Assembly (NCBI GenBank): GCA_000526575.1
Contig: JAGI01000002.1
Location: 2,837,501 to 2,901,500 of the forward strand
Source: Clostridium sp. 12(A)
Lineage (GTDB): Bacteria > Bacillota > Clostridia > Lachnospirales > Lachnospiraceae
DNA: 64,000 bases
Direction: 5' to 3'
Part shown: piece by piece, positions 39,824 to 56,847 of the stretch
Layout: each line of letters opens with the position of its first letter
Numbering within the stretch: the first letter of the stretch is position 1
Notes under the pieces: generated by a model
Seen by the model: the letters and a program-made list of their open reading frames with translations, nothing else
What the model was told of the DNA's origin: nothing
Database searches by the model: none
Program-made: the position numbers and the translations under genes

Positions 39824-40837
39824 TTACAGAGAACATTTTTTGCGCGTTTCACTTTTATATTCTTTCACAGTTACCTTCTCATATTTCTTAAATACCTTGC
39901 TAAAATAGCTGCTTTCATTATAACCAAGGCGAAAGGCTACATCGGCAATGCTGTCCTCGGTAAAATAAAAATACCCTTTTGCCAGGTGTATCTTTTTCAT
40001 ATGAATGTACTCTGTCACACTTACATTAAGCTGCTCACGGAAAATACGGCTTAGATATCCCTGGCTGATGGCACAGTTTTCTATAATAGTGTTAAGAGTA
40101 ATATCTTCTTTGATATGATTTTCTATATAAAGAAATATATTTTCCAACAGGGAATATCGGTTGATGCTGTTTTGCTGAAACAAATAATCCATCACTCGAA
40201 AGAGCCAGAGCTCTGATGTCTTTCTTTCGAGAATCAGTGCTTCATTAATAGGAAACAGCTCTCCAATCTGCACATTTTCATCGTAGACCATTCTGGTGTC
40301 CAAAAGATTCTGTCCAATATAAGTGAAAAGTTTAATCAGTCTTACGGAATCCCCACCTGCCATCTCATAAATACCGTCAATGATTCCGGAAAGACTTCTG
40401 TAAAACTCCCCAAAGTCTTTTTGCCTTAGAAGCATTGCAAGTGCCTCATGATGATTCATAACGGTATCTTCATGATTGGTCTTGTAGTTCTCCAGTATCT
40501 TTTTTAAGTGGCCCCATGTAACGGGTTTCTCCAAAACATCCTTTACTTCATCTCTTGCCATGCTCCGGACAAAAACATGAGTGGAAAAGGCGGAAAGCAT
40601 ATAAATGGTGATCTCCGGATCAGACTGATGAATGATTCTGCCGGCTTCCAGACCTGTCATTCCAGGCATCATCATATCCATAAATACAATGTCTATGGAA
40701 CCTTCTTTGCATGCTCTTACCGCGCTCTCCCCATCGCCTACTACCTGGACTATTTGGAATGATTCATCTCGGGATATTAAAATCTTTAAGGCTTCCTGCA
40801 TTAATATATCATCATCTGCAATCAGAACCCTATACAT
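39824..40837 (-). CDS. Response regulator with AraC-type DNA-binding domain (microcompartment locus)
   Basis: 337 residues. The receiver domain has Asp54 in IVFMDMMMPG, with acidic residues at 8-10 and Lys in VLEKPVT. A helical linker follows (about 125-235), then two AraC helix-turn-helix motifs at the C-terminus (ISQGYLSRIFREQLNVSVTEYI and RLGYNESSYFSKVFKKY in outline). It starts 2 bases after the PocR-domain sensor gene, so they form a pair. It is the likely activator of the dehydratase operon and would bind in the 509-base region around 54938-55446. Confidence 0.9.
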   Translation of the reverse strand: MYRVLIADDDILMQEALKILISRDESFQIVQVVGDGESAVRACKEGSIDIVFMDMMMPGMTGLEAGRIIHQSDPEITIYMLSAFSTHVFVRSMARDEVKDVLEKPVTWGHLKKILENYKTNHEDTVMNHHEALAMLLRQKDFGEFYRSLSGIIDGIYEMAGGDSVRLIKLFTYIGQNLLDTRMVYDENVQIGELFPINEALILERKTSELWLFRVMDYLFQQNSINRYSLLENIFLYIENHIKEDITLNTIIENCAISQGYLSRIFREQLNVSVTEYIHMKKIHLAKGYFYFTEDSIADVAFRLGYNESSYFSKVFKKYEKVTVKEYKSETRKKCSL

Positions 40838-40839: not shown

Positions 40840-42171
40840 TTATTCCGTCCTTTCTTCATAATGTTCAGGCCAGATCAGAACGTTTTTGCACCCCTTATTC
40901 CTGGTGCCCTCTGATATGATTTTATACTCTTCACCAAAAAGCCTCCTCATCTTATCCCTGGCATAATCTTTCCCCAAGCTAATGTAATACCCTTCGTGCT
41001 TGTCCTTAAATGCCTCATATTTGGCTTCTAATTCCACTTCTGAAAGACTGGGTCCATCGTCGCTGATCTCAAGGACTATGTTGTTATTCCTTATGGAGCC
41101 TCCTATGGAAATCTTTCCCCCCTGTTTTTTTAATGCAATTCCATTATACAGGGCATCTTGAACAAATGGCAGTAAGATACCGGAAGGCATCTTTCTCATA
41201 TGCATCTCTCTTGGCACCTGAATGGAATAATTAAGCCGGTCTCCCAGCTTCTTTTTTTGAATCAGCAGATAATTTTCTGCATGATCCAGTTCTTTTGATA
41301 TAGGGACAAAGGTACCCTTGTCCATACATTTATATTTAGTATATTCAATAAAAGAACCCAGAAATTCCTGAAATTGTTCTTTATCTTCTATAATGGATAG
41401 GTTCATGAGAGAAGTCATGACATCCATGGTCTCACAGGGATTGAAATTCATCTTCAGTTCCTGGAGTTCCATGTTCTTTTTTGCAATTTCTTTGACTAGG
41501 AGCTGGTTGGCTCCCTGAATTCCTTTTATCCGCTTCTTTAATGCGTCTTCATGTAGATGCTTGCTGACTTCATTTTCACTTAGCTGATTGATTACAAGGA
41601 AAACCAGATTGGCGATATCTAAAAACTTCTCATAGGGAAAAACAGGAATTTCCTTTCGAAACTCCTCACATTTTTCTCTTACCTCTTTTGATTGGTCCGA
41701 ACGCATCACAGAAGCCAGGCGGCTTACAGATTCAGGGGCATCCACACACTGGACCTGTCCCCCGATAAAGCCTCCCAGATAGTGCCCTCTGACAATAATG
41801 GGGATTGCCATCTCTAACAGTCCACAGGGGCAAAAATATACATTGGCCTTTTTTGTGACTGCTGCCTGGATAGATCCAAAGGCATCCGAAGATTTGCAGC
41901 CTTCTATGGCCTCTTTGCTGTTTCGAACCTGATTGCAGAAGCCGGAAAAAAACGTTGCATCCGTAATAGGTTCCCCTCTAAAATCCACCGTAACAAATGC
42001 CACACCGGTAGCTTTTGAAAGACTCTTTTGGATATTCTCCAGCTTTTCCTTTCCAAACAAGTGGATGATATCCAGTTTTGTCATGTTACCGTCTTCATCC
42101 ATACTGAAATAGTCATCTGCGGAATCCGACTGCATCTCGGCTAAATGAAGCAGTTCCTGATATTCTTCCAT
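40840..42171 (-). CDS. PocR-domain sensor protein with degenerate LytS-type kinase module
   Basis: 443 residues. The PocR ligand-binding domain (about 33-195) keeps its four cysteines (Cys79, Cys92, Cys114, Cys116 in YFCPCGL); in PocR this domain senses 1,2-propanediol-type ligands. A coiled coil and a His_kinase/GHKL region follow. The canonical NPHF of LytS-type kinases reads NPCE here, so the phosphoacceptor His is Cys246. The N box (VQDALYNG) and the second G box (YISLGKDY) are also altered. Phosphotransfer is therefore doubtful. It may control the adjacent regulator by binding, or receive a partner kinase. There are no membrane helices. Confidence 0.82.
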   Translation of the reverse strand: MEEYQELLHLAEMQSDSADDYFSMDEDGNMTKLDIIHLFGKEKLENIQKSLSKATGVAFVTVDFRGEPITDATFFSGFCNQVRNSKEAIEGCKSSDAFGSIQAAVTKKANVYFCPCGLLEMAIPIIVRGHYLGGFIGGQVQCVDAPESVSRLASVMRSDQSKEVREKCEEFRKEIPVFPYEKFLDIANLVFLVINQLSENEVSKHLHEDALKKRIKGIQGANQLLVKEIAKKNMELQELKMNFNPCETMDVMTSLMNLSIIEDKEQFQEFLGSFIEYTKYKCMDKGTFVPISKELDHAENYLLIQKKKLGDRLNYSIQVPREMHMRKMPSGILLPFVQDALYNGIALKKQGGKISIGGSIRNNNIVLEISDDGPSLSEVELEAKYEAFKDKHEGYYISLGKDYARDKMRRLFGEEYKIISEGTRNKGCKNVLIWPEHYEERTE

Positions 42172-42249
42172 CCTTATAACCTCTCCTTGCTGCTATGTTT
42201 TATGTCATCTTCTTGTAAATGATTTATTTCTATATCAGAATAACACAAG

Positions 42250-42283
42250 AAGACCGGGCTGTCATATAAAACAGCTCGGTCTT
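42250..42283 (-). terminator. Hairpin between the alcohol dehydrogenase and sensor genes
   Basis: 13-base arms AAGACCGGGCTGT and ACAGCTCGGTCTT with one mismatch, but the following leftward sequence is CTTGTGTT, poor in T. It may be a partial terminator or processing site that lowers regulator expression relative to shell genes. Confidence 0.55.
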
Positions 42284-42292
42284 ATGATATTA

Positions 42293-43435
42293 TTATCCTT
42301 TTCTGCCACTCTTCCTGCCCTCGTAAATATCCAACAGAATTTTCTGTATCCCGGGACCTGCGATTTTAGTAGGGGTGGTGGCAAAACAGGCATCCATAAG
42401 AGCATTATCTACCATATTTTTAAGTTGCTTTTCATATTCCATCCGGTCAATTCCAAGTTCCATAACAGACTCCGGCATCTTCATGCAGCGCATCAGAGCG
42501 GTAATCAGTCCTTTGATTGCTTTTACGGCATCTCTGGAATCTTCCCTTGCTTCTGCTAACTGTACTTTTACAGCAAGTGCGGCATACTTATTCATAATCT
42601 CCTGGCTTGTACAATTATATTCTATTACATGATTTAACAATATAGCATTTGCCAGGCCATGGGGAATGTGAAAGGTTCCCCCAAGCTGATGGGCTATGCT
42701 GTGATTGATACCAAGACCAGCCGTATTAAATGCGATGCCTGCAAGGGTAGAGGCTTCCTGCATCCTGGTTCTGGCTTTTAAATCATTTCCATCCTTGTAG
42801 CAGCCCAGCAGAGATTTTAGTAGTAGCTCTATTGACTTTTCTGCCATGGCATCAGAGAAAGCGTTGGCACCTGTGGCAACATAAGCCTCTAACGCATGGG
42901 TCAGCACATCCATTCCGGTATTTGCTGTAACGGCCTGAGGGACTGACAAGGTCAGCGTGGGATCTAGAACAGCTACATCGGGAAGGATTTCATCGGACGA
43001 AATCAGGTGCTTGCTCTTGTTATCAGGATCTGTTATGACAGAAGCCTGGGTTACCTCTGATCCGGTTCCGCTGGTTGTCGGTACTGCAATAAAGAGGGGC
43101 TTTTTAACCAGTTCTTTTACCATGGAAAAATAAATGATTCCTTTTGCGGTATCAATGGCAGATCCGCCTCCAAAACCTATGACAATCTCCGGTTTTACCT
43201 GATACATCATACAAAGTCCCGATCCTACCACCTGGATGGTGGGATCAGGGATGGCTTTGTCAAATAATTCTACGGCATTGCCGGAACAAAGAATGTCTGT
43301 TAAATACGTAACAGCTCCATTCTCTGAAAGGAACTTATCACAAACGATTAAAATCCGCTTATTTTTTATGCCTTTTAAATACTCTCTTGCCTGCTTGCCT
43401 TCCTGTATTCTGGTTTTCATGGTTACATTTGACAT
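42293..43435 (-). CDS. Iron-containing alcohol dehydrogenase of the microcompartment (PduQ-like)
   Basis: 380 residues. The nucleotide-binding motif GGGSAIDTAKG is at 89-99, and the iron ligands Asp176, His180, His245 and His259 are all in place. It would reduce part of the aldehyde (propionaldehyde if the substrate is 1,2-propanediol) to the alcohol, regenerating NAD+ for the aldehyde dehydrogenase inside the shell. There is no obvious N-terminal targeting helix. It is the last enzyme gene before the hairpin, 43 bases after pduP. Confidence 0.92.
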   Translation of the reverse strand: MSNVTMKTRIQEGKQAREYLKGIKNKRILIVCDKFLSENGAVTYLTDILCSGNAVELFDKAIPDPTIQVVGSGLCMMYQVKPEIVIGFGGGSAIDTAKGIIYFSMVKELVKKPLFIAVPTTSGTGSEVTQASVITDPDNKSKHLISSDEILPDVAVLDPTLTLSVPQAVTANTGMDVLTHALEAYVATGANAFSDAMAEKSIELLLKSLLGCYKDGNDLKARTRMQEASTLAGIAFNTAGLGINHSIAHQLGGTFHIPHGLANAILLNHVIEYNCTSQEIMNKYAALAVKVQLAEAREDSRDAVKAIKGLITALMRCMKMPESVMELGIDRMEYEKQLKNMVDNALMDACFATTPTKIAGPGIQKILLDIYEGRKSGRKG

Positions 43436-43478
43436 CTGCGTTTCTCCTTCTTATTCCAAGAATATAAGCCGAACCGCT

Positions 43479-44894
43479 TTACCTGATACTGAATGCATCG
43501 GCAAGAACGCATTTCCGTTTTCTGCAGAAAGATCTTGCTGAGGTAAGGCCTTCTCCTGTAGGTCCTGCAATGGTGAATGTGGTATGGCCTTCTCCGCCTG
43601 CTCCGATTCCTGCAAAGGATGGTGCATTTTTAACAAAGATTGTTGTTTCTAATATTTTTGCCATTTTGCTTAATTTCTCGACGTTCTGAGAGTGCATGAT
43701 TGCTGTATGACGGTTTCCCTGCTCTGCTTCATAGGCATATTCAATGGCAGTGTCCACGTCAGAAACACGTACAATTGGAAGGATGGGCATCATCATCTCT
43801 TCCTGAACAAACAGATCATCCTTTGGTACTTCCATGATAATCACACGAACAGAATCTGGTACCTTAACCCCCAGCTGATCCAGGATATAGACTGCGCTCT
43901 TTCCAACGAAGGAAGTCTTTGGGCCGCCTTTTTCTGTGGTTACAAGAGCTTTTAATTCCTCGATCTGCTGTCTATCTGTCATCAGATAAGCACCATTATC
44001 CTTCATATACTGAATGAGGTGATCACAGATGGAATCTACGGCAAATACTTCTTTCTCTGCAATGCAAGGAACATTATTGTCAAAGCTGCAGCCATCTACA
44101 ATATCCTTTGCTGCTTTTTTAATATCTGCGGTTTCATCAACGACCACAGGAGGATTGCCTGCACCTGCTCCGATGGCTTTCTTTCCGGAGGAGAGAACTT
44201 TCTTTACAATGGAAGGACCGCCGGTAGCAACTAAAAGGCGAACTTTGGGATTGCTTATCATTTTTTCCGTGTTTTCTAAAGATGGCTCTTCCACCATAGA
44301 GATTAAGTCAGAAGGAGCACCAGCTTCTATTAATGCTTTGTTTAACATCTTAACAAGAAGTCTGGACACCTTTTTTGCTCTTGGATGAGGGCTGAAAAGA
44401 ACGGTGTTTCCACCAGCGATCATGGAAATGGAGTTATTGATAATGGTCTCCGTTGGATTGGTGGTAGGAGTAATGGCTCCTATGACACCAAAAGGACAAT
44501 ACTCTATCAGAGTAAGACCGTTATCCCCTGTGACTGCCTCAGAAATCAAATCTTCTGTTCCAGGAGTCTTTTCCGCTGCCAGACGGTTCTTAATAAGCTT
44601 ATGCTCATAACAGCCTATCTCTGTCTCTTCCACTGCCAGTCTTGCGATCAGCTCTAAGTTTTCTTTGTTTAAGACCGTTTTTCGGATCACATCCACATAT
44701 TTCTGGCGGTCAGCCATGCCAGTATAAAGAAGTTTTTTCTGTGCCTTTTCAGAAGCTTCTATCGCCTCCTCTATTGTTGAGAAAAGACCGTATCCTTCTT
44801 TTCTTTTCTCTGTTACACTCATCATCTGTTCTGACTGAATCTCACGTAAAACCTGTTCTACCATTTGTTCAATTGCTTTTAAATCCATATCCAA
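43479..44894 (-). CDS. pduP: CoA-acylating aldehyde dehydrogenase (PduP-like) with encapsulation peptide
   Basis: 471 residues. The first ~20 residues form an amphipathic helix (LKAIEQMVEQVLREI) typical of microcompartment encapsulation peptides, joined by a short linker to the dehydrogenase. The catalytic Cys277 lies in NNVPCIAEK; VATGGPSIV and the C-terminal RKRKCVLADAFSIR are family features. It would oxidise the dehydratase product to acyl-CoA with NAD+. pduL lies 46 bases upstream and the alcohol dehydrogenase 43 bases downstream. Confidence 0.94.
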   Translation of the reverse strand: MDMDLKAIEQMVEQVLREIQSEQMMSVTEKRKEGYGLFSTIEEAIEASEKAQKKLLYTGMADRQKYVDVIRKTVLNKENLELIARLAVEETEIGCYEHKLIKNRLAAEKTPGTEDLISEAVTGDNGLTLIEYCPFGVIGAITPTTNPTETIINNSISMIAGGNTVLFSPHPRAKKVSRLLVKMLNKALIEAGAPSDLISMVEEPSLENTEKMISNPKVRLLVATGGPSIVKKVLSSGKKAIGAGAGNPPVVVDETADIKKAAKDIVDGCSFDNNVPCIAEKEVFAVDSICDHLIQYMKDNGAYLMTDRQQIEELKALVTTEKGGPKTSFVGKSAVYILDQLGVKVPDSVRVIIMEVPKDDLFVQEEMMMPILPIVRVSDVDTAIEYAYEAEQGNRHTAIMHSQNVEKLSKMAKILETTIFVKNAPSFAGIGAGGEGHTTFTIAGPTGEGLTSARSFCRKRKCVLADAFSIR

Positions 44895-44940
44895 GTGTCT
44901 CTACCTTCTTTCCCTTATTGTAAATCTGTTTTAGAAATCC

Positions 44941-45582
44941 TTACCGTTCTTTTCTAATGATTACATGATCACCATTGCTTAATGAAAAGGCATTGGCTTC
45001 ATCAACGTCTACGTGCATTTCCAATGCAAACTGATCCGATATACGAACCAGAACATCTCCAAATACACCCCGTCTTTCGCCAAATGTCTCTACTTCTACC
45101 ATATCTTTGTCCTTCAGACCCAGAGCATCTGCCTGTACAGGCGTCATATGGATATGGCGTAAAGCAACAATCGCACCATTCGAAAGAGAAACAATGCCTT
45201 GGGGACCGATTAAATCCAGTCCCGGGGTTCCTGTTAAGTCTCCGGATTCCTTTATGAGAGGACGGATTCCAAGACGGAAACTGTCGGTCTTTGATACTTC
45301 GACCTGACTTTGTTTTCTCACTGGTCCAAGAATCCGTACCCGTTCAAATTCTCCCTTAGGGCCTCGTATTGTTACTGTCTCATTGCTTGCAAACTGTCCC
45401 GGCTGTTTTAAGTCGCTTTTCCTGGTCAGTTCATAATCCTTTCCGTAAAGTATGTCTAAATCCTGTCTGGATACATGGACATGCCGGTTCGATACCCCAA
45501 TGGGAACTTTATGTATGTCATAATCTTTCATTTTCTCCATTACCCGCCTGGTAACAAGCTTGATTAATTCTTCTTTATCCAT
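44941..45582 (-). CDS. pduL: Phosphate propanoyltransferase PduL
   Basis: 213 residues. An N-terminal targeting helix (DKEELIKLVTRRVMEKM) is followed by two PduL half-domains. The zinc-site histidines are His34 and His36 in NRHVHVSR, His143 and His145 in RHIHMTP, and His190 in EMHVDVDEAN. It converts acyl-CoA to acyl-phosphate and frees CoA within the shell; acetate kinase encoded at 56897-58090 can then make ATP. Confidence 0.95.
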   Translation of the reverse strand: MDKEELIKLVTRRVMEKMKDYDIHKVPIGVSNRHVHVSRQDLDILYGKDYELTRKSDLKQPGQFASNETVTIRGPKGEFERVRILGPVRKQSQVEVSKTDSFRLGIRPLIKESGDLTGTPGLDLIGPQGIVSLSNGAIVALRHIHMTPVQADALGLKDKDMVEVETFGERRGVFGDVLVRISDQFALEMHVDVDEANAFSLSNGDHVIIRKER

Positions 45583-45619
45583 GATTCCCTTTTCCTTTTG
45601 AACTGGTTTTTACTCCTTA

Positions 45620-45895
45620 TTATAATTTTGGCAAAATCTTCTCCACATCTGTATGAGGTCTTGGAATGACATGGCAGGATACCACTTCCCCTACATTTGC
45701 CGCAGCCGCTGCACCTGCGTCTACGGATGCTTTTACAGCGCCTACGTCTCCGCGAACCATAATTGTTACAAGACCAGAACCGATTTTTTCGTATCCTATC
45801 ATTGTTACATTTGCTGCTTTCGTCATTGCGTCTGCTGCTTCAATTGCGCCTACCAGACCTTTTGTTTCCACCATTCCTAATGCTTCATTAGACAT
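45620..45895 (-). CDS. BMC-H microcompartment shell protein (PduA-like)
   Basis: 91-residue single BMC domain that forms hexamers tiling the shell facets. [18 protein letters not shown] opens the fold, and [22 protein letters not shown] and [13 protein letters not shown] follow. It is nearly identical to the BMC-H at 50348-50626 (same length, same start, [13 protein letters not shown] against VLP), so the two are recent duplicates. It lies between metK and pduL. Confidence 0.97.
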
Positions 45896-45939
45896 TTGTT
45901 TTTCCTCCTATTTTTTGTTATACGAACCTTCTATTAAAA

Positions 45940-47124
45940 TTAAAATGCTAACTGTCTTAATATCCATGCCTTATCTGTTTCTTCCCAGCAAAATCCCTGA
46001 TTTGTTCTTCCAAAATGCCCGTAAGCGGCTGTCTTTTGGTATTGGGGCCTTAGAAGCTTTAATTTGGAAATGCAATCGGAGACGCCAAAAGAGAACACAT
46101 TTTTTACAAGCGCTTCCATCTGATGATCGGAAATGGTACCGGTTCCAAAGGTGTTGACCGTAATTGCCTCTGGCTCGATACCTCCGATGACATATGCAAG
46201 CGCTACTTCACATCTGTCTGCCAGACCTGAGGCAACAATGTTCTTTGCCACGTAGCGAGCCATATAGGCTGCCGAGCGGTCTACTTTCGTAGGATCTTTG
46301 CCAGAAAAAGCACCTCCGCCATGCTTTCCAATGGTACCATAGGTATCCACCATAATCTTTCTTCCGGTGACTCCCGTATCCCCAGCCGGACCTCCTATGA
46401 CAAAACGTCCCGTAGGATTGATATGGATTCTTGTCTCAGGCGTTATAAGGCCGGAATCTATCACCGGCTCAATGACCATACAGCGGATGAATGCATGAAG
46501 TACCTCCCGGCTAACTGCTTCGCTGTGCTGGGCAGATACAACAATGCTGTGTATTCCCACAGGTTCACCTGCCTGGTTGTAGCGCACAGTAACCTGGGTC
46601 TTTCCATCCGGATATAAAAAAGATGCTCCCTGGGTCTTTCTAACAGAATCAAGCCGCTCTGCCAGACGGTTTGCCAGATAACAGGGCAGAGGCATCAGAC
46701 TCTCTGTCTCATTGACCGCATAGCCGTACATGACACCCTGGTCTCCTCCGCCAAGCACTTCCATCTCCCCTTCTTTGCCTTTGGTGACACCAAGGGAAAT
46801 GTCTGGAGACTGATTATGTATATTGGTAAATATCATGCAGGTATCTGCATCAAACCCTTTTCCAGGTTCCACATATCCAATGTCTCTGATAACCTTCCTG
46901 GCGGTTTCCACCACATCAATCCGGGCGGTTGAGGTGACTTCTCCTGCCAGCATCAGGGTGTTTGTAGAAGCCATGACCTCTACTGCCACTCTGGATGCTG
47001 GGTCTTCCTTCAAATACGCATCTAAAATCCCATCTGCAATCTGGTCACAGACTTTATCCGGATGCCCCTTTGTAACGGATTCAGAGGTCACCAAATAGGT
47101 TCTATCCTTGCACCTTTCAAACAT
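45940..47124 (-). CDS. metK: S-adenosylmethionine synthetase encoded inside the microcompartment operon
   Basis: 394 residues, full length. ATP and methionine motifs are intact: GHPDKVCDQ at 20-28, GGGDQGVMYG, and HGGGAFSGKDPTKVDRS. It differs from typical housekeeping MetK in places (GGIEPEAITVNTFGTG where AIGVAEP-type sequence is usual). It lies 24 bases after the second aldehyde dehydrogenase and 44 before a shell gene, on the same strand. This suggests a dedicated SAM supply for the glycyl radical activase. No targeting helix is seen. Confidence 0.93.
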   Translation of the reverse strand: MFERCKDRTYLVTSESVTKGHPDKVCDQIADGILDAYLKEDPASRVAVEVMASTNTLMLAGEVTSTARIDVVETARKVIRDIGYVEPGKGFDADTCMIFTNIHNQSPDISLGVTKGKEGEMEVLGGGDQGVMYGYAVNETESLMPLPCYLANRLAERLDSVRKTQGASFLYPDGKTQVTVRYNQAGEPVGIHSIVVSAQHSEAVSREVLHAFIRCMVIEPVIDSGLITPETRIHINPTGRFVIGGPAGDTGVTGRKIMVDTYGTIGKHGGGAFSGKDPTKVDRSAAYMARYVAKNIVASGLADRCEVALAYVIGGIEPEAITVNTFGTGTISDHQMEALVKNVFSFGVSDCISKLKLLRPQYQKTAAYGHFGRTNQGFCWEETDKAWILRQLAF

Positions 47125-47148
47125 TCCTTCAACCTGCTTTCTCGATGA

Positions 47149-48462
47149 TTAACGGAGGGCGAAGCCGTCGGTCAGTGTACACCTTCTCCTCCGGGTAAAA
47201 TGCCTTGCAGTGGCAGTTCCCTCTCCGGTCGTGGTTGCAACCGTAAAACTGGCGTGCCCTTCCAGATCAAATCCAACTCCCAGTAAAGACGGACCGTTTT
47301 TTATAAATACAGAGGTCTGCATCTTTTTTGCTGCACGGCTTAAATGTCCAATACACTGGGAATGAATGGTGGCTGTGTGCTTCAGTCCCTGTTCCACTTC
47401 AAGAGCCGTCTCCAATGCTTCATCAAAATCAGTAACCTTAATCAGAGGGACCAGGGGCATTAAAAGCTCAAGAGTCACAAAGGGATGGGTCTTATCCGTT
47501 TCTGCCACAATCAGCTTTACAGGAGATGAACAGGAAATTCCTGCGCTGGCAAGTATCTTATCAGCACTTTTTCCTTCCAGCTTTTTATTCACCATTAAGT
47601 CTTCTGTTACAGCAGCTTTAAGAAGCTTTTGAATCTCTTCCTCGCTCTTTACATAATAGACCCCGTTCTTTAAAAGCTGATAAATAAAAGCGTCTGCTGC
47701 CTGCTCTGTCACGATCATGCACTTTTCGGAGGTACACATTAAATTGTGATCAAAGGCTGCACCGCGGACAATGTCATACGCTGCCTGCCTGATATCAGCC
47801 GTCTCATCTACAATTGCAACCGGGTTTGCCGGTCCTGCTGCAATCACCCGTTTACCGGAAGCCATTGCCTGATTCAGAGAGTCCGCACATCCGGTGCACA
47901 CCACCAGGTCTACATCCGGGTGACTCATAATCTCTTTTGTATATCCCATAAGACTTTCATGGAGCGTTACCACAAGATCCGGAATATTACAGGTGGTGAA
48001 TACGGCATTGCTAATCACCGCTGTCACCAGCTGGGATACCCGCAGTGCTCTGGGATGAGGGCAATGTATCACGCTATTTCCTGCTGCAAGCATACCAATG
48101 GTATTATTAATGAGGGTCGCGCAAGGGCTGGTGGAGGGCAAAACCGCACACACAACGCCTACGGGAGCAAGCTCATATAGAGTCATGCCGTGATCCCCTG
48201 TGTTGATTTCTGAAATGAGATCCTCCACACCTGGAGTTTTTTCTATGGCAAGACGAATTTTCTCCGTCTTATCCGCTTCATTTCCCATACAGGTCTCTGC
48301 CACAGTCAGTGCCGCCAGTTCTCCTGCCATGGGGCGAAGTGCCGCTCTTACGGCTTCTACAACTTCACGCCGCTCATTTAAAGTCAGCTCTGCATATTTT
48401 GCGGATGCGGTCTTTGCTGCTGATACCGCAGCCGTTACACTGGAGTAAATACTGCTAATCAT
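47149..48462 (-). CDS. Second CoA-acylating aldehyde dehydrogenase, lacking an encapsulation peptide
   Basis: 437 residues, about 34 shorter than the PduP at 43479-44894 because the N-terminal targeting helix and linker are missing. The catalytic Cys243 (NLMCTSEK) and the C-terminus RRRRCTLTDGFALR are kept. The segment VCTGCADSL replaces the usual ATGGP-type loop, which may change cofactor or substrate handling. GGAGG precedes the start, 45 bases after the pentamer gene. It may be a second isozyme, a heteromeric partner of PduP or a structural paralogue. Confidence 0.88.
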   Translation of the reverse strand: MISSIYSSVTAAVSAAKTASAKYAELTLNERREVVEAVRAALRPMAGELAALTVAETCMGNEADKTEKIRLAIEKTPGVEDLISEINTGDHGMTLYELAPVGVVCAVLPSTSPCATLINNTIGMLAAGNSVIHCPHPRALRVSQLVTAVISNAVFTTCNIPDLVVTLHESLMGYTKEIMSHPDVDLVVCTGCADSLNQAMASGKRVIAAGPANPVAIVDETADIRQAAYDIVRGAAFDHNLMCTSEKCMIVTEQAADAFIYQLLKNGVYYVKSEEEIQKLLKAAVTEDLMVNKKLEGKSADKILASAGISCSSPVKLIVAETDKTHPFVTLELLMPLVPLIKVTDFDEALETALEVEQGLKHTATIHSQCIGHLSRAAKKMQTSVFIKNGPSLLGVGFDLEGHASFTVATTTGEGTATARHFTRRRRCTLTDGFALR

Positions 48463-48507
48463 ATGAATTCTTACCTCCTTTCCTTTAAAGCTGACAAGGA
48501 GAGCCTT

Positions 48508-48771
48508 TTAACCTACGACGGTATCAACGATTCCAATAATCGCCATGTCAATAACAGCTTCCCGCTTCTTCTTATCTACGCGGACAGAAGAACCCTGGCC
48601 AATTAAAACGATTTCGCCCACTCCTGCCCCTACATAATCTACTGCCACTTCTTCAGAATCTATGAAATTACCTTGGGAATCAATCCTGCGAACGATCATC
48701 AGCTTGTAGCCCGTTAAGGTCTCATCTTTCCTGGTCGCTACAACAGTACCTGTAATCTTTGCCAGTCTCAC
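48508..48771 (-). CDS. BMC-P pentameric vertex protein (EutN/CcmL/PduN family)
   Basis: 87 residues, all within the family fold. MRLAKITGTVVATRKDETL opens it, and DYVGAGVGEIVLIGQGSSVR and AIIGIVDTV follow. Pentamers cap the twelve vertices of the shell and close it. This is the only vertex protein in the locus. It lies between the extended BMC-H and the second aldehyde dehydrogenase. Confidence 0.96.
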   Translation of the reverse strand: MRLAKITGTVVATRKDETLTGYKLMIVRRIDSQGNFIDSEEVAVDYVGAGVGEIVLIGQGSSVRVDKKKREAVIDMAIIGIVDTVVG

Positions 48772-48840
48772 TTACGTTCCCTTTCCTTTCCCGGCCACAA
48801 AAATTCCCCACGAACTTTGTGTACCGCCTAAATCCTGAGA

Positions 48841-49548
48841 TTAATTTTTTGTTTTATGTCCAGCCGTTTTTTTCGTTCCGGATGGGGTTGCAGAAGATTT
48901 CTCTTTTCCCGCCTGCGGTTCAGTCTGTAATTCAGACTGAGCTCCAGCCTGTGGTTCCTGAGCTGATTTTTCTTCTGCTGCCTGTTCCACTAATGCTGGT
49001 TTTTCTTCTAATTTATCTTCTAGTTGAACTGCTGATTCAACTGCGGGTTCAACTACTGGTTTAATTTCTGCTTTAAATGCTGATTCAGCTTTTGGTTTAA
49101 CTTCTGGTTTAACTTCTATTTGAACTTCTGATTTTTCTTCTACTTCTGGTTCTACCGTCTCTTTTATAGCTACTTTTACGACTGTCTTCCCTGTTATCGC
49201 ATCTTCCTTTTCTGTCTGCGTTTGCACATGAGCAGAATCGGACGGCTGTATGGGCGCATCTGTTTTTGTGTTTTTAGCAGCTCCAAAAATCTGTTCCACA
49301 GAATCTGCAGGCCGGGCAATGACCTTAAAGGACACCAGCTTCTGGTTTTCCAATCCTGTCTGCTTTCCTGCGCTTACAGCCGCATTGACTGCTCCCACAT
49401 CTCCGGCAACCTTAACGGTCATATAGCCTTGACCTTTGGAGTTTTCAATCTCCAGAATTGTTACATTGGCTGCTTTGACCATGGTATCTGCTACCAGCAC
49501 TGCCGTTGACAATCCCTGGATTTCTACCAATCCTAATGCCTGTTTCAT
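48841..49548 (-). CDS. BMC-H shell protein with a long acidic Pro/Glu/Lys-rich tail
   Basis: 235 residues. Residues 1-92 are a complete BMC domain (ALGLVEIQGLSTAVLVAD, then VKVAGDVGAVNAA and KVIARPADSVEQIF). Residues 93-235 form a low-complexity extension built of VEPEVEEK, EVKPEVKP and similar units. It ends in a small basic tail KKTAGHKTKN. The DNA holds an exact 12-base tandem repeat at 49094-49117. EutK and PduK also carry tails, but with a helix-turn-helix or metal-site module, which I do not see. The tail may bind cargo or link compartments. Confidence 0.9.
   Translation of the reverse strand: MKQALGLVEIQGLSTAVLVADTMVKAANVTILEIENSKGQGYMTVKVAGDVGAVNAAVSAGKQTGLENQKLVSFKVIARPADSVEQIFGAAKNTKTDAPIQPSDSAHVQTQTEKEDAITGKTVVKVAIKETVEPEVEEKSEVQIEVKPEVKPKAESAFKAEIKPVVEPAVESAVQLEDKLEEKPALVEQAAEEKSAQEPQAGAQSELQTEPQAGKEKSSATPSGTKKTAGHKTKN
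49094..49117. repeat. Tandem 12-base repeat in the BMC-H tail
   Basis: Two exact copies of GGTTTAACTTCT, encoding EVKP twice on the minus strand; degenerate copies continue on both sides. Slippage here would change the tail length without a frameshift. Confidence 0.7.
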
Positions 49549-49570
49549 TGAATCACCTCACAACTTATGT

Positions 49571-50305
49571 TTACTGTAAGACAATGTTTAATAACCTTGC
49601 CCTGTCTTTTGCTAAATCTGTAATGATGTCCCCCTCTTTTAAAAGAAGTACTCCATCTGATGCATGTTCTTCTACATTGGATGCCGTTATGAGCCTTTTC
49701 CCATGGGTTTCACAATTACTGGTCTTTTCCTTTTCAGTAACGCTCTTAAAGGAATCTGACCGGGAAAGACTTTTACAGGAACCGATTTCTATTCCATATT
49801 CCAAAAGCTTTCTGTAATAAGATAAAATCTGCTCCTGATAGGCTGGCTGTTCCTTTCCTGAAAATGGAGTAAGTCCGGACTGTAAAAACAGAATTCTGCT
49901 TCCCGCCCGAAAACAAGCTGCCAGCCAGATAGTCTCAAAGGTATCGTGAATGCACAGAGCGGTCTTTACCGCCACCTCTGTGGTAACCACTGGAAAAACC
50001 GTGACTGCATCTTCTAAATCTGACGGAATCCCCTGGGAAGCATACCGTACTCCTTCACAGGATGAAAAATTTCTAAAACAGGCTTCCCGTCCCTCCGCCT
50101 GCCATTCATCAGGAATGACAGGGCAGACACGGTATTCACCTGTTTTATGTATTTCTTCTAAAAATTCGTAATATCTTTCATCCCAGGCTGAGGTACAGAC
50201 CATATACAAGCGATTTTTTTCTCTTTTTTCCTCTTCTTCCAGTCTCTTTAAGATTTTTAGCACCAGCTGCTTTAGCTGCTCTTCACTGATCGTCAATTCA
50301 TCCAC
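49571..50305 (-). CDS. Microcompartment-associated flavoprotein-like protein of unknown function
   Basis: 244 residues. The N-terminal ~28 residues (EEQLKQLVLKILKRLEEEE) form an amphipathic helix like the encapsulation peptides of PduP and PduL. An alpha/beta domain follows (VVTTEVAVKTALCIHDTF, LAACFRAGSRILFLQSGL). The C-terminal part ends ITASNVEEHASDGVLLLKEGDIITDLAKDRA in outline. It resembles the hypothetical protein found between shell genes in clostridial eut/pdu loci, sometimes called flavoprotein; I cannot assign a reaction. The helix suggests a lumen location. Confidence 0.65.
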   Translation of the reverse strand: MDELTISEEQLKQLVLKILKRLEEEEKREKNRLYMVCTSAWDERYYEFLEEIHKTGEYRVCPVIPDEWQAEGREACFRNFSSCEGVRYASQGIPSDLEDAVTVFPVVTTEVAVKTALCIHDTFETIWLAACFRAGSRILFLQSGLTPFSGKEQPAYQEQILSYYRKLLEYGIEIGSCKSLSRSDSFKSVTEKEKTSNCETHGKRLITASNVEEHASDGVLLLKEGDIITDLAKDRARLLNIVLQ

Positions 50306-50347
50306 CTCATTTCTGGTAACGGGGCTATCATCGCCCCATAACCATAT

Positions 50348-50626
50348 TTACTGAAGAGTTGGAAGAACTTTTTCAACGTCAGTATGAGGACGTGGAATTA
50401 CATGAGTAGAAACGAGTTCACCTACGGATGCTGCTGCGGAAGCCCCTGCATCTGTTGCTGCCTTTACAGCTCCAACATCTCCTCTTACCATAACAGTTAC
50501 AAGTCCTGAACCGATTTTTTCATATCCAACTAATGTCACGTTTGCTGATTTTACCATTGCATCTGCTGCTTCAATTGCTCCTATTAAGCCTTTTGTCTCT
50601 ACCATACCTAATGCATCTGCGCTCAT
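50348..50626 (-). CDS. BMC-H microcompartment shell protein (PduA-like)
   Basis: 92-residue single BMC domain, a close paralogue of the protein at 45620-45895. It carries [36 protein letters not shown] and [16 protein letters not shown]. It should be a major facet hexamer. It lies 37 bases after the trimeric shell gene. Confidence 0.97.
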
Positions 50627-50663
50627 TGTAAAGCCTCCTTATGATTCCTGAATGTTTTTTTAG

Positions 50664-51437
50664 TTAAATGTAAGGGGTCTCAGAGGTTTTTGGTTCATCT
50701 CCCAAGGCTCCAAGCATTTTCTTGCCTGCTTCGATGGCGGCCTGCACGGCCTGCCTTACTGCTCCGGAATCTCCGGTAAAGGTTAGGATTACCTCGTTGG
50801 AATAGCTGGTTCCTGATGCCGGGGAGCTATAGCCCACCACTTCAACATTGGCTGCTTTAACTGCAATATCAGCCAAAACAGTACCAATGGCTGCGGGACC
50901 TGCACAGGTCATTCCAAATGCCTTGCCTACCGGTGCTCCAAGTGCCTTTTCCAGACAGTAGCTGGCTCTTGCCGTATACTGGAATTCCAGATGTCCTGCA
51001 TCATTGGAGTAAACATCTCCAAAGTATTTTGGAAGTACCTGAAGTGCGATTTCCACTGCTCTTCTGGCATCGGATACATCTTCTGCACCGATATAGATTA
51101 AACTTCCGTGTCCGGCTCCGCCTTTGGTATCTCTTGGAAGCTCTACAGAAATAATCTCTGTATTGGTTGCCTTTACTGCTTCATCTACAGCCCATATCTG
51201 GGGGCCGGCTCCGACTCTGCCCCCAATAATACCAACCGAACGGTACTTACCTAATTTCATAGCCTCGGCAAGCATTGGGTCAACACTGGCAATTACAAGT
51301 CCTATGGTATCACCAATGGCAGTTCCCACAAATTCAGTCATCCCGATTCCGTTAGCTGCCGGACGTGTTGTTTCTTTCTTGATTCCAAGCTCATCAGATA
51401 CTTGTTTCATTACTTTTTCAATTAACTGCTGATCCAT
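50664..51437 (-). CDS. BMC-T trimeric shell protein (PduB-like)
   Basis: 257 residues with two fused BMC domains (about 35-145 and 150-245), forming pseudohexameric trimers. The N-terminal helix (QLIEKVMKQVSDELG) resembles the PduB extension that links shell and lumen. GSGTSYSNEVILTFTGDSGAVRQA and GAGHGSLIYIGAEDVSDARRA mark the two halves. It lies 26 bases after the activase gene and is the only trimer gene of the locus. Confidence 0.95.
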   Translation of the reverse strand: MDQQLIEKVMKQVSDELGIKKETTRPAANGIGMTEFVGTAIGDTIGLVIASVDPMLAEAMKLGKYRSVGIIGGRVGAGPQIWAVDEAVKATNTEIISVELPRDTKGGAGHGSLIYIGAEDVSDARRAVEIALQVLPKYFGDVYSNDAGHLEFQYTARASYCLEKALGAPVGKAFGMTCAGPAAIGTVLADIAVKAANVEVVGYSSPASGTSYSNEVILTFTGDSGAVRQAVQAAIEAGKKMLGALGDEPKTSETPYI

Positions 51438-51463
51438 TCTTTTCCTCCAGTCTCAATTTGAAT

Positions 51464-52381
51464 TTATCCACCAATTACGCACCGAAAACCGTACTTTTCC
51501 ACAACTTCCTTACACTCTGTAAGATCTTCCGGATTCAGTGGCTTTACATGTTCCAGTTCGTACTTCTTCCCTAACAGCTCATATTTGTTCTCTCCAAAGG
51601 AATGGTAGGGAAGAAGGTGTATGGTTCTGATACCTGTCAGTTTTTTTGCATATGCTGCAATTTCACCAATCGCCTCCAGGGAATCATTGAAACCTGGAAT
51701 CACAGGAACCCGGATTACCGTATCTGATATCTGGGTAATATGGGGAGCATTTTTTAATACCACTTCATTGTCCGCTCCCGTAAACCGCTTATGCTGTTCC
51801 GGGTTCATATGCTTGATATCCAAAAGAACCGTATCTACATATGGGATAACCTGTTCTACCGCTTCCTCCGTTCCGATTCCGGTGGTCTCAATGGCAGTGT
51901 TCCAGCCCTGCCCCTTACTGGCTTTTAAAATCTCTGCTGCAAACTCATACTGCACCAGTGGCTCACCGCCAGAGAGGGTGACTCCCCCTCCGGAGCGGCG
52001 GTAAGTAGTGGCATCTTTTTTTAATTCCCGTATCACCTGCTGAACGGACATGGTCTTTCCTTTAGAAACAAGGGCTCCTGCCGGACATGCATTGGCACAT
52101 TCTCCGCAGCTGGTGCATACTTTTCTGTCTATCCAGTTTTCATTTTCCGTGCTGATGGCTCCTGCTTTGCACACATTGATACAGCGTCCGCAATGAATGC
52201 ACTCATCTTTTTTATACATCATGACCGGCTTCATACTCTGGGATTCCGGATTACTGCACCACTGGCAGGAGAGAGGACAACCCTTTAAAAATACGATTGT
52301 ACGGATTCCCGGACCATCGTGCAGGGAAAACCGCTGGATATCAAATACGGTTCCCGTCAGATTATAATTAATTGACTCCAT
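51464..52381 (-). CDS. Glycyl radical enzyme activase (radical SAM)
   Basis: 305 residues. The radical SAM cluster motif is Cys35-x3-Cys39-x2-Cys42 (GCPLSCQWC). Two ferredoxin-type [4Fe-4S] motifs follow (CIHCGRCINVC and CTSCGECANAC, about 62-108), as in dehydratase and pyruvate-formate-lyase-2 activases. SGGEP is the SAM-binding segment. It generates the glycyl radical on the dehydratase encoded 33 bases upstream, consuming SAM. There is no targeting helix. Confidence 0.96.
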   Translation of the reverse strand: MESINYNLTGTVFDIQRFSLHDGPGIRTIVFLKGCPLSCQWCSNPESQSMKPVMMYKKDECIHCGRCINVCKAGAISTENENWIDRKVCTSCGECANACPAGALVSKGKTMSVQQVIRELKKDATTYRRSGGGVTLSGGEPLVQYEFAAEILKASKGQGWNTAIETTGIGTEEAVEQVIPYVDTVLLDIKHMNPEQHKRFTGADNEVVLKNAPHITQISDTVIRVPVIPGFNDSLEAIGEIAAYAKKLTGIRTIHLLPYHSFGENKYELLGKKYELEHVKPLNPEDLTECKEVVEKYGFRCVIGG

Positions 52382-52414
52382 GCCGACTCCCTTCTTTTTC
52401 TATGCCGGAACCCT

Positions 52415-54937
52415 TTATAACGTCTGCTCGGTACGGCTTATAATGTCATCCTGAACTTCTTTTGCAAGCACAGTAAACTGCGCACTGTAGCCAGCGACTC
52501 GGACTACAAGATCCTTGTACTGATCCGGATCCTTCTGAGCCGCAAGAAGGGTTTCACGGTCGATTACGTTAAACTGCACATGCATGCCCTTGTGATCAAA
52601 GTAAGAACGTACAATGGAAGCGAAATGCTTTAAGCCTTCATCTCCAGCAAGGGCTGATGGAAGGAATTTCTGGTTATATAAGGTTCCGTTTGAATAGTTT
52701 GCATGATCCAGTTTAGAAACTGACATGGCAGCCGCAGTGGGACCATTGGTATCTTTTCCCTGTCTTGGGGATACGCCGTCTGCAAGAGGTGCTTTCGCCA
52801 GTCTTCCGTCAGGAAGGGCTCCTACATCCTTACCAAACAATACATTGGCGGATACGGGATAGCAGCCTGCCTGGAACTGACCGCCTCTTGGGTTTTTGTA
52901 TTTCTCAACTTCATAGGAATAAATCTGTCCGCAGCGTCTTGCAATCATATCCACTTCGTCTTCATCGTTACCAAACCATGGTGTATTCTCAAGAATTCTC
53001 TTAATCTGCCCATAGTCTTCCTTGCTGCCTGAAGCTTCTTTTTGAGGCTTGCTCAACTGTGCCTGTAAATCAGCAAGATTGATGGAACCGTTATTGCTTA
53101 AAATTCTCTTTACTGCTTCATAAATTCTGTCTTCATCCGTAGATTCCGCTAAAGAACAAGTCTTGTCACAGCAGTTGCCGAAATTATGATCAAGCGCTTC
53201 TTTTAACTGTGCCATGGTAATCTCTTTGTTTTCAAAGACATGCTTCTTGATCGCACAAAGGGAATCTCCTGCATCAGCAACACCAAACGCCTGTGGTCCG
53301 GTGAAGTTATAGATCGCTCCGCCTTCCTGAACACTCTTACCACGGCCGATACAGTCATCCACCAAAGCAGATAAGAATGGAAGGGGTGCACGCTCTGCAT
53401 GGGCATAATCCACACAGTTATCTGCCTCTGCAAGATGGTAAACAAAATACTCCATCTGCTTTTTGTAGGCCTCGAAAAGCTGCTCTAAATTAGTAAAGGA
53501 GGTAATATCACCTGTTACAGGACCCAGCTGCTTATCCCCAACTTTTCCGTTATTCAGAGTGATTTCAAGAACCTTTGCAATATTAAAGAATGCGGCATCG
53601 TGCCAGCCTTCTGTTTTATGAGGACACTGTGGCTCCACACAACCGATGATACAGTAATTCCTTGCGTCTGCTAAGGATACGCCTCTGTTGCAGAGAGCTG
53701 GAATAATTACTTCGTCGTTATACATGGCAGGGACACCAAGGCCTAAACGAGTAAGCTCACAGGCACGGTAAAGGAATTCGTCCGGTGTGTTCTGATGCAC
53801 ACGAATGGAGAATGATGGTGCAGGGAGTTTAACATGTGCAACCGCCTCCATACACATATAAGACATTTCATTTGTTGCATCCAGTCCGTCTTCTGTCTGA
53901 CCGCCTACAATTAAGTTCTGGAATACTGCGTATCCAGCAAATGCCTGGGCAGAAACTTCATCTCTGGTCTTATTGATATCATTTAACTTGACCCATACAC
54001 AGTCTACCAGTTCCTGTGCAAACTCATGGGAAATGTCTTTATCCATGGCAAGATAGGGATTCATGTACTGGTCAAAACGTCCTGGTGAGATGGAATGTCC
54101 ATTGGCTTCAATCTGAAGCAGAATCTGTACAAACCAGAAGGACTGGCATGCCTCATAGAAGTTCGTCGCACCCTGCTTTGGAACCTTGTCGCAGTTTGCT
54201 GCAATCTGAAGCAGTTCTGCTTTTCTTTTCGCATCGAGACAAACCGCTGCCATCTCTTTTGCTTTTTCTGCATAACGATGTGCGAACCGAGTGGCTGCCG
54301 TATATGTAATGATGAGGGCTTCATAGAAATTTTTCTTCTTAATATAATCCGGGTCACTGGTATCAAGCTTTGCCATTGCTTCCATGACCTGACGGATAAT
54401 ACCGGTAAATCCGATTTTTAATACTTTGCCGTAATCCACGCACACGTGTCCCACGCCGCCATAGAAATAGTTTCCTACGGTAAATACACCATTGCTGATG
54501 CAGTCTTTTGTCTCCTGGGACATATAGGAATCTGCCAAGGCACTGGTAGTCTTTCCATCCCAGTACTTAAATGCTTCCTTTAATTCTGCTGCAGTCTCCT
54601 TTGGAATCTGAAATGGGTCCGCGATTCTGGTTGCCATGGTATCAAATTCTTTCTCTACCCAATCATAGGAAAATTCAGGGCAGATTTCGGTGGAACGGAG
54701 GTTCTTTGTAATTGCACCAACAATCAGTTCATTGTCATGAATGGTGATTGGAAGACTATTAAAAATCTTCTCCGCGGCCTTTGCTCTCCTCATAATCGGA
54801 GACAGCCCTTCCGTCTCTTTATAAGATTCTGTTACTAAAACAGCTCGTTCCGATTCAACATATGGAATTGCATCCACAATGGCTCTTTTCAGTTTTTTTA
54901 TACGCTCCGTTGGCTCTGTAAACCCTTTTGCAAGCAT
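52415..54937 (-). CDS. B12-independent glycyl radical diol dehydratase (1,2-propanediol/glycerol type), microcompartment signature enzyme
   Basis: 840 residues. Active-site residues fall at the positions known for Clostridium butyricum glycerol dehydratase: His164, His281, Ser282, Cys433, Glu435 (GCVEPQ) and Asp447 (GWHD). The radical Gly816 lies in RVAGYS, 24 residues from the end. The diol-type Asp447 and histidines argue against choline lyase. The N-terminus has no extension. Instead about 53 residues appear inserted at 589-641, including CCDKTC and a helix DRIYEAVKRIL. It dehydrates the diol to the aldehyde. AAGGAGG precedes the start. It is the first gene of the operon. Confidence 0.95.
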   Translation of the reverse strand: MLAKGFTEPTERIKKLKRAIVDAIPYVESERAVLVTESYKETEGLSPIMRRAKAAEKIFNSLPITIHDNELIVGAITKNLRSTEICPEFSYDWVEKEFDTMATRIADPFQIPKETAAELKEAFKYWDGKTTSALADSYMSQETKDCISNGVFTVGNYFYGGVGHVCVDYGKVLKIGFTGIIRQVMEAMAKLDTSDPDYIKKKNFYEALIITYTAATRFAHRYAEKAKEMAAVCLDAKRKAELLQIAANCDKVPKQGATNFYEACQSFWFVQILLQIEANGHSISPGRFDQYMNPYLAMDKDISHEFAQELVDCVWVKLNDINKTRDEVSAQAFAGYAVFQNLIVGGQTEDGLDATNEMSYMCMEAVAHVKLPAPSFSIRVHQNTPDEFLYRACELTRLGLGVPAMYNDEVIIPALCNRGVSLADARNYCIIGCVEPQCPHKTEGWHDAAFFNIAKVLEITLNNGKVGDKQLGPVTGDITSFTNLEQLFEAYKKQMEYFVYHLAEADNCVDYAHAERAPLPFLSALVDDCIGRGKSVQEGGAIYNFTGPQAFGVADAGDSLCAIKKHVFENKEITMAQLKEALDHNFGNCCDKTCSLAESTDEDRIYEAVKRILSNNGSINLADLQAQLSKPQKEASGSKEDYGQIKRILENTPWFGNDEDEVDMIARRCGQIYSYEVEKYKNPRGGQFQAGCYPVSANVLFGKDVGALPDGRLAKAPLADGVSPRQGKDTNGPTAAAMSVSKLDHANYSNGTLYNQKFLPSALAGDEGLKHFASIVRSYFDHKGMHVQFNVIDRETLLAAQKDPDQYKDLVVRVAGYSAQFTVLAKEVQDDIISRTEQTL

Positions 54938-55103
54938 AAAATATCCTCCTTCTACCTAATAAGTTTTTGGCTGATTCCTCTGTCCACATCATATCCCATC
55001 CAGGTGAAAACACTGAAATATTATTAAAACATAAAAGTTGTACAATCCAGACTTCTTCTATCCTGACCTGATATCCAGGCTTTTAACCCCTCTTAAATCA
55101 GGG

Positions 55104-55280: not shown

Positions 55281-55377
55281 ATTCCAGTAATCTACAGACT
55301 GATTTCATGTATTTTTGAAACCTCCGCATTTTACATCATCTGTATTGGATTGTCCCTTTTTTCGGATTGTACTGTAA

Positions 55378-55406: not shown

Positions 55407-55446
55407 GATGTTAAGTCCATGAAAGTCCCTATAAGGAGGTATTCTT

Positions 55447-55908
55447 GTGAGTGATTCCCAAATGGCGGGAGAAATTGCAGCGGCTGTCATTGAAGCCTTA
55501 AAAAGTGAGCGCATGACTTTAGAAGAGGCTATAAGTATTATGAAGCGAGGGGAAGAGATGGCCAGGTCACTTCACGTTCCCATGGTATTTACCGTGGTGG
55601 ATGACGGAGGAAACATGGTTGCCATGCACCGTATGGATGATTCCCTCCTTGCCGCAATATCGGTTTCCCATGCAAAAGCATATACTGCAGCTGCCCTGCG
55701 CATCTCCACCGAAGAAGCGGGCAAGACCGTTCTTCCGGGACAGCCTCTTTACGGTCTCCAGCAGACCCACCCCGGAAAATTCTGCGTCTTTGGAGGCGGT
55801 GTCCCCTTGACCAGTGGCGGCCGCTTCCTCGGCGGACTAGGTGTTTCAGGTGGCACAACAGAGCAGGATATTGCCGTAGCCAGACACGCTGCGGCCAGCT
55901 GCCCATAA
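55447..55908 (+). CDS. GlcG/HbpS (DUF336, PduO C-terminal-like) protein with putative encapsulation helix
   Basis: 153 residues from a GTG start with AGGAGG seven bases upstream. Residues about 5-22 (QMAGEIAAAVIEALKSER) form an amphipathic helix like microcompartment targeting peptides. The rest is a DUF336 domain (VVDDGGNMVAMHRMDD and FGGGVPLTSGGRFLGGLGVSGGT in outline). In PduO this domain binds haem or flavin-like cofactors; its role here is unknown. It is read opposite to the dehydratase operon from its own strong promoter and ends in a hairpin terminator. Confidence 0.85.
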   Translation: MSDSQMAGEIAAAVIEALKSERMTLEEAISIMKRGEEMARSLHVPMVFTVVDDGGNMVAMHRMDDSLLAAISVSHAKAYTAAALRISTEEAGKTVLPGQPLYGLQQTHPGKFCVFGGGVPLTSGGRFLGGLGVSGGTTEQDIAVARHAAASCP

Positions 55909-55911
55909 CGC

Positions 55912-55957: not shown

Positions 55958-55962
55958 ACGGA

Positions 55963-56847
55963 TTAGGTCAGGAAAAAACCGTTTCCAAATAATATATTTA
56001 CAAGAAAGGTAAAGATAAAAATGGTACATGCAGGAGGATCCACATGGGTATCACAATGACTGTTAAATGTCCTTCCCACAAAATCACCAAACAGCGCGGT
56101 CAAAATACCAAACAACACTCCCATCAGAGGGTTGCCGGAAAGCACTGCCGCTAACGCGGAGACCAGGGCAATGTGATGGGTGGAGGGAACACCAAAACCT
56201 GTCTGGGCAAATATTAAAGAAAGTGCTGCGATCCCAAAACAAAGGACGGGAAAGTTTCCAGTCACTGCTTCCGGTGCTCCTGCCGCTGCCATCGTCTGAT
56301 ACACAAATCCAGTGGCAGTCCCGATTCCGGCACCAAGCAGAATCAGGCAGAAGAGCTCTTTTCCTCCTGCGATATAGGTCCTTTTTTCCCCTTGCTCCAC
56401 CTTTCCCATGAGGCCAGTGCTTCCAAAAGCAAAACGTGCGATGAGAGCGGATGCAATAACCGTAATACCCGGTAGATCCGTATTTAACTTTAGGACGCCT
56501 CCTGCAAGATAATGAATGACAAATCCAAGGACTCCAAACACTCCGCCCACGATGAGGGTCATAGGATCAGACAATCCGAAGAGAGGGGTCAATATATCCG
56601 TGCCGCTTTTTAAAAGCTTCTTTTTTCCTGCGTAAGCTGCAGCCGCAACTCCGCCTGCAAAGGCAACATGAGGACCCAGATAAGAACCAAATGTAACGTA
56701 GCTTAAGGTTGCATCCGCTCCTCCTGCCATTGCCACCGCCGCTCCTGCAAGTGCAAGTACCCCAGTCAGTATAAATGCTGGAAGTGCTCCTAAATAAGCC
56801 CCAATAACGCCTCCGCCAAACGCCCCAATTAAAGCAAAAATACTCAT
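55963..56847 (-). CDS. Polytopic membrane protein of unknown function next to ackA
   Basis: 294 residues with about eight to nine membrane helices, rich in Gly and Ala. Conserved-looking loops include FGSYLGPHVAFAGG, FGLSDPMTLIVGG, GFGVPSTHHIALVSA and FNSHCDTHVDPPACT. The last, with Cys and two His, could be a metal site. I do not recognise the family. It follows ackA by 49 bases, so they are probably co-transcribed. That placement suggests a transporter for a substrate or acid product of the microcompartment, but this is inference. Confidence 0.6.
   Translation of the reverse strand: MSIFALIGAFGGGVIGAYLGALPAFILTGVLALAGAAVAMAGGADATLSYVTFGSYLGPHVAFAGGVAAAAYAGKKKLLKSGTDILTPLFGLSDPMTLIVGGVFGVLGFVIHYLAGGVLKLNTDLPGITVIASALIARFAFGSTGLMGKVEQGEKRTYIAGGKELFCLILLGAGIGTATGFVYQTMAAAGAPEAVTGNFPVLCFGIAALSLIFAQTGFGVPSTHHIALVSALAAVLSGNPLMGVLFGILTALFGDFVGRTFNSHCDTHVDPPACTIFIFTFLVNILFGNGFFLT

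Follow-up and report, generated by a model that had tools for sequence, protein, structure and literature searches.

The stretch of DNA analysed here (the window) covers 64,000 nucleotides of Clostridium sp. 12(A), contig JAGI01000002.1, and at positions 42293–54937 it contains an operon for a bacterial microcompartment built around a glycyl-radical enzyme. This is very probably a complete and ordinary glycyl-radical microcompartment (GRM) of the GRM3 class, a protein shell within which 1,2-propanediol is fermented anaerobically and with no need of vitamin B12. Loci closely similar to it are known from many bacteria. The operon has 13 genes on the minus strand, all of them open, with 12 intergenic gaps of 22–69 bases. 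The functional locus is wider (39824–58090) and also includes a PocR-domain kinase and an AraC regulator downstream (39824–42171). Upstream of the dehydratase it takes in genes for a DUF336 protein, a GrpO-like membrane protein and a member of the acetate-kinase family. Gene identities are based on family searches with Pfam and NCBIfam models. An earlier note had described the operon with its dehydratase, activase, five shell proteins, aldehyde and alcohol dehydrogenases, PduL and MetK, had named seven catalytic residues of the dehydratase, had seen no aldolase in the locus, and had taken the enzyme for a B12-independent glycyl-radical diol dehydratase of the GRM3 rather than the GRM5 type. 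All of this was borne out, the gene families by these searches and the class by the CutC score and the tree described below. A 244-residue protein in the middle of the operon was missing from its list.

The dehydratase carries each of the seven residues (His164, His281, Ser282, Cys433, Glu435, Asp447 and Gly816). Its class can be judged from a phylogeny, which the earlier note had proposed as a check. Related loci were collected in one scan of genome contigs that gave 136 pattern matches and 115 relatives, the best 80 of which were kept; each locus was taken with about 10 kb on either side, and the counts given below leave out genes farther away. A quick maximum-likelihood tree has 85 rows, of which one is the window enzyme and 79 come from the 80 loci; the others are E. 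coli GrpM, the CutC encoded in this genome and three enzymes of solved structure. In it the window enzyme belongs to a starred group that holds 78 GRM3 rows. Of the solved structures, the diol dehydratase 5i2a groups with two rows from Blautia, the glycerol dehydratase 1r8w groups with rows from Tepidibacter and Photobacterium, and 9rco stands beside Raoultella planticola. CutC is far off on a very long branch. The window dehydratase thus groups with GRM3 enzymes, apart from choline lyase, a GRM5 enzyme and glycerol dehydratase. Choline (GRM1) and fucose/rhamnose (GRM5) compartments are also built on glycyl radicals, and a choline-type locus exists elsewhere in this genome. That the window locus is of either kind is extremely unlikely: the CutC model gives 571 bits on the window enzyme against a cut-off of 1050, and 1675 bits on the other locus, while for GRM5 the tree parts the enzyme from 5i2a and the locus has no aldolase. 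Fuculose/rhamnulose-phosphate (class II) aldolases were searched for by family; none is found in the window, and there are three PF00596 matches elsewhere in the genome.

Another reading is that the dehydratase chiefly uses glycerol and yields 3-hydroxypropionaldehyde. The glycerol dehydratase 1r8w, about 55% related, matches it over its whole length, and the locus has a glycerol operon (GlpP, GlpA-like, GlpK) as its immediate neighbour. Against this stands residue 339, a position that we take to be beside the substrate and to bear on glycerol binding. It is Phe in the window enzyme, in all 79 aligned relatives, and in 5i2a and 9rco, but Tyr in 1r8w; the two relatives that group with 1r8w also carry Phe339, so that residue and tree do not agree in every case. 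In R. palustris, GRM3 enzymes convert 1,2-propanediol to propionyl-CoA and gave no corresponding product from glycerol (Zarzycki 2017, PMC5311937). Because of Phe339 and the missing glycerol product, glycerol is unlikely as a substrate, and it is very unlikely to be the chief one. For 1,2-propanediol, growth of C. ljungdahlii, with GRM3 genes and polyhedral bodies, has been described (PMC12016505).

The gene content agrees with the 1,2-propanediol GRM3 assignment. Published GRM3 loci have a common core of dehydratase, activase, PduB, BMC-H, BMC-P, aldehyde dehydrogenase, alcohol dehydrogenase and PduL (Axen 2014, PMC4207490; Ferlez 2019, PMC6325248), with acetate kinase, MetK, a two-component pair and DUF336 listed as ancillary genes (PMC4207490). 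The window locus contains the whole core, including an activase with a ferredoxin-like insert and BMC-H, BMC-T and BMC-P shell proteins (one PduB-type BMC-T, three BMC-H, one of them with a tail of 150 residues, and one BMC-P), as well as all four ancillary functions. Its dehydratase has an internal insert near residues 590–640 with an amphipathic stretch at 602–619, which is missing from 1r8w and matches the internal insertion of about 60 residues typical of GRM3, by which the enzyme would be encapsulated. The locus has no PduS, PduT or GrpU, a pattern of GRM3 and not of GRM3b (PMC6325248). The G-x-CPQ motif of the iron-sulfur BMC-H GrpU is absent from the six frames of the window; it occurs in 39 of the 80 loci, and all 17 loci with both aldehyde dehydrogenase lines lack it. 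This, too, agrees with the published description of GRM3 and not with that of GRM3b (PMC6325248). Compared with the published loci, the window has its acetate-kinase, DUF336 and GrpO-like genes upstream of the dehydratase, and a membrane protein is not among the ancillary genes in the passage of PMC4207490.

Individual systems give a similar picture. For E. coli the grp operon of ATCC 11775 (RefSeq annotation NZ_CP033092) served as reference, with 19 genes from grpA to grpS. Sixteen of these have counterparts in the window, 15 by BLAST and GrpD by family profile only, in the form of the 244-residue protein. The gene order differs, the window has one extra aldehyde dehydrogenase, and its tailed BMC-H best matches GrpH (51%) and then GrpS (45%). 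In R. palustris BisB18 the GRM3 dehydratase likewise has an internal encapsulation insert, and the aldehyde dehydrogenase has the same Cys/Glu/His spacing as in the window (PMC5311937); this species is an alphaproteobacterium, whereas the second aldehyde dehydrogenase lineage belongs to Firmicutes loci. The GRM3 locus of C. beijerinckii DSM 6423 also has two aldehyde dehydrogenases and MetK, and is fed from L-rhamnose (PMC6384099). That of C. ljungdahlii includes an aquaporin gene and, in the printed table, no MetK (PMC12016505), where the window has the GrpO-like protein instead of the aquaporin. Some points weigh against the GRM3 assignment: counterparts of GrpC (a chaperone), GrpK (an iron-sulfur-type BMC-H) and GrpL (a protease) were not found in the window, end branches in the quick tree are long, and exactly which rows stand next to the glycerol dehydratase is only modestly supported. 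No finding contradicts a GRM3 locus for 1,2-propanediol.

The combination of two aldehyde dehydrogenases, MetK and a tailed BMC-H had been called distinctive. This does not hold, because these genes recur among the 80 loci: both aldehyde dehydrogenase lines in 17 (the AldDH1 line in 29, the AldDH2 line in 63), MetK in 58, and a BMC-H whose stop-to-stop frame is 150 residues or longer in 71. In print, too, second aldehyde dehydrogenases are mentioned for some Clostridium GRM3 loci (PMC4207490), next to MetK as an ancillary gene. PduB is found in 74 loci, BMC-P in 71, PduL in 62 and DUF336 in 58. The nearest relatives, [Clostridium] aerotolerans and Lacrimispora algidixylanolytica (98% and 96% identity in the dehydratase), have an identical gene order. 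A second MetK copy is present in the genome at C2:2743624. A special status for the MetK of the locus was rejected: its identity is 50% both to this second copy (410 bits) and to E. coli GrpR (357 bits), and these comparisons do not show a dedicated GRM lineage.

The two acylating aldehyde dehydrogenases differ in what they suggest about the shell. Encapsulation-peptide-like here means an amphipathic 18-residue stretch that ranks among the strongest 3% of all such stretches in 20 proteins. By this measure the dehydratase has such a helix in its insert, and AldDH2, PduL and the 244-residue GrpD-like protein (stretch 11–28) have one at the N-terminus, while AldDH1, the alcohol dehydrogenase and MetK have no amphipathic stretch of that strength. 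Lacking this helix, like its line in Firmicutes GRM3 loci, AldDH1 may work outside the shell, or bind other cargo. AldDH2 has Cys277, Glu366 and His396, with spacings of 89 and 119 that equal the published R. palustris spacing, and AldDH1 of the window retains the same three residues. Across the AldDH1 line 27 of 30 rows retain the Cys; the other three (L035, L037, L079) have His in its place and have thus lost the catalytic residue. This loss, in 3 of 29 relatives, shows that parts of such loci can decay, and the window locus might likewise be present yet decayed or silent. That is extremely unlikely, given that all genes are open, the catalytic residues are retained and close relatives share the gene order at high identity.

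Going by the relatives that have been studied, the GRM3 locus would work as follows. The PocR-domain kinase and the AraC-type regulator probably sense the diol and turn the genes on. The activase, using S-adenosylmethionine from the local MetK, would generate the glycyl radical at Gly816, from where it would move to Cys433, and the dehydratase would then convert 1,2-propanediol to propionaldehyde within the shell. AldDH2 would turn this into propionyl-CoA and PduL into propionyl phosphate, from which the acetate/propionate kinase would make propionate and ATP; the alcohol dehydrogenase would form 1-propanol and regenerate NAD+. The diol itself would either be taken up by the cell, perhaps by way of the GrpO-like protein, or be formed in the breakdown of L-rhamnose. 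Elsewhere in the genome, outside the window, rhaA adjoins a class II aldolase gene, with mutarotase-like and kinase-like reading frames beside them (named by eye), and there is one Fucose_iso_C match in the genome. In C. beijerinckii, L-rhamnose is converted to propanol and propionate, and the GRM3 genes are induced on it (PMC6384099). In view of the rhaA and aldolase genes and this precedent, a locus without an aldolase does not prove that the diol comes only from outside; it may also arise internally, which we rate as likely as uptake. The earlier proposal, that free 1,2-propanediol or glycerol is taken up, therefore stands for propanediol, fails for glycerol, and is weakened as to a source outside the cell only.

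If the diol is taken up, the GrpO-like protein, the one part of the locus that has received little study, is of interest. It has 294 amino acids, and an alignment of 32 sequences shows an invariant His224-His225 and a D-x3-DPPA motif. It has no Pfam or NCBIfam match (E. coli GrpO has no NCBIfam match either), and a sequence search against solved structures gave chance matches only. A GrpO homologue is found in 31 of the 80 loci, 30 of which have it no more than 8 kb from the dehydratase gene, and an aquaporin frame with two NPA motifs in 13 (five were checked, and all were MIP); no locus has both, and 36 have neither. In proteobacterial loci, the slot after the activase is taken by a GrpO-like gene in eight cases and by an aquaporin in 12. 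The mutual exclusion has a hypergeometric probability of 0.0008 if kinship is ignored. On the tree just three changes account for the 45 labelled rows, and a single one for the 20 enterobacterial rows, which leaves few events behind the pattern. By DNA search, grpO is present in 536 of 5426 E. coli genomes, and it is called a permease in all ten rows listed. Among 299 Firmicutes genomes 23 have a homologue; of 20 neighbourhoods inspected, with several gene names assigned by eye, five look PDU-like, six look linked to glycerol and nine show neither, though a single family (f28) supplies five of the glycerol-linked and two of the PDU-like ones, which are not independent. In the window, too, the gene is near the glycerol operon (GlpP, GlpA-like, GlpK-like). 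A search of the available papers for GrpO together with propanediol found none; an E. coli genetic study (Lundin 2020) is cited in PMC13210347. Taken together, the sequence evidence favours the GrpO-like protein as a candidate facilitator for small polyols (1,2-propanediol or glycerol). We see about an even chance that GrpO is an unmodelled facilitator family that takes the place of PduF, an aquaporin, in many propanediol loci of the B12-free kind, and that also serves PDU-type and glycerol operons.

The remaining features of the locus are collected in the table below. The neighbouring glycerol operon (GlpA-like and GlpK-like genes), the GlpP antiterminator and an FAH-family hydrolase adjoin it at 58346–63930; GlpP and FAH are near GRM3 genes in just two of the 80 loci. 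In the window an Rfam search gave no match and ARAGORN found no tRNA. Used as a query against plasmids, the operon gave one match of 172 bases. The choline-type (CutC, GRM1) locus of the genome (L092, G000:C2:2757001-2776500) lies about 61 kb before the window start and encodes a BMC-H that carries a GSCPQ motif, as well as a second aldehyde dehydrogenase in which another residue stands for the catalytic Cys (FDYGIVSAAEQ). At L093 (G000:C2:439001-450000), positions 4972–6313, two EutS/PduU-like shell proteins flank a small GTPase-like gene, apart from any other BMC gene within that stretch. In Candidatus Symbiopectobacterium 'North America' the dehydratase (L066, 3088–5730) is in two separate open frames and looks broken.

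Table. Genes of the GRM3 locus, with window positions and the matches behind each assignment
Feature	Positions	Strand	Evidence
Glycyl-radical 1,2-propanediol dehydratase, GrpM type, 840 aa	52415..54937	-	PF02901, PF01228; 70% to E. coli GrpM
Radical-SAM activating enzyme, ferredoxin-like insert, GrpN type	51464..52381	-	TIGR02494, Fer4; 54% to GrpN
BMC-T shell protein PduB, GrpI type	50664..51437	-	TIGR04501 383 bits, cut-off 310
BMC-H shell protein 1, GrpH type	50348..50626	-	PF00936; 84% to GrpH
Distant GrpD-type flavoprotein relative, 244 aa	49571..50305	-	weak TIGR02536; family profile to GrpD 1.7e-15
BMC-H with 150-residue Glu/Lys/Ala-rich tail	48841..49548	-	PF00936 at residues 4-80; tail make-up
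BMC-P vertex protein, GrpE type	48508..48771	-	PF03319
Aldehyde dehydrogenase 1 (AldDH1)	47149..48462	-	NF011927; Cys/Glu/His kept
MetK, methionine adenosyltransferase, GrpR type	45940..47124	-	TIGR01034
BMC-H shell protein 2, GrpH type	45620..45895	-	PF00936; 80% to GrpH
PduL phosphate propanoyltransferase	44941..45582	-	PF06130
Aldehyde dehydrogenase 2 (AldDH2), PduP/GrpJ type	43479..44894	-	NF011927 702 bits; 61% to GrpJ
Iron-containing alcohol dehydrogenase, GrpA type	42293..43435	-	PF25137, PF00465; 39% to GrpA
PocR-domain sensor histidine kinase, GrpP type	40840..42171	-	PF10114, PF06580
Response regulator with AraC DNA-binding domain, GrpQ type	39824..40837	-	PF00072, PF12833
DUF336/HbpS-like protein, GrpF type	55447..55908	+ (opposite strand)	PF03928; 38% to GrpF
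GrpO-like membrane protein, candidate facilitator	55963..56847	-	40% to E. coli GrpO; alignment of 32
Acetate/propionate kinase family, GrpG type	56897..58090	-	TIGR00016; 44% to GrpG

The locus is one more well-preserved clostridial GRM3, which corrects the view of its gene set as unusual. For GrpO, a family without a match in the two curated libraries searched (Pfam and NCBIfam), the proposed role would, if true, mean a second, non-aquaporin entry route for 1,2-propanediol, and perhaps for glycerol.

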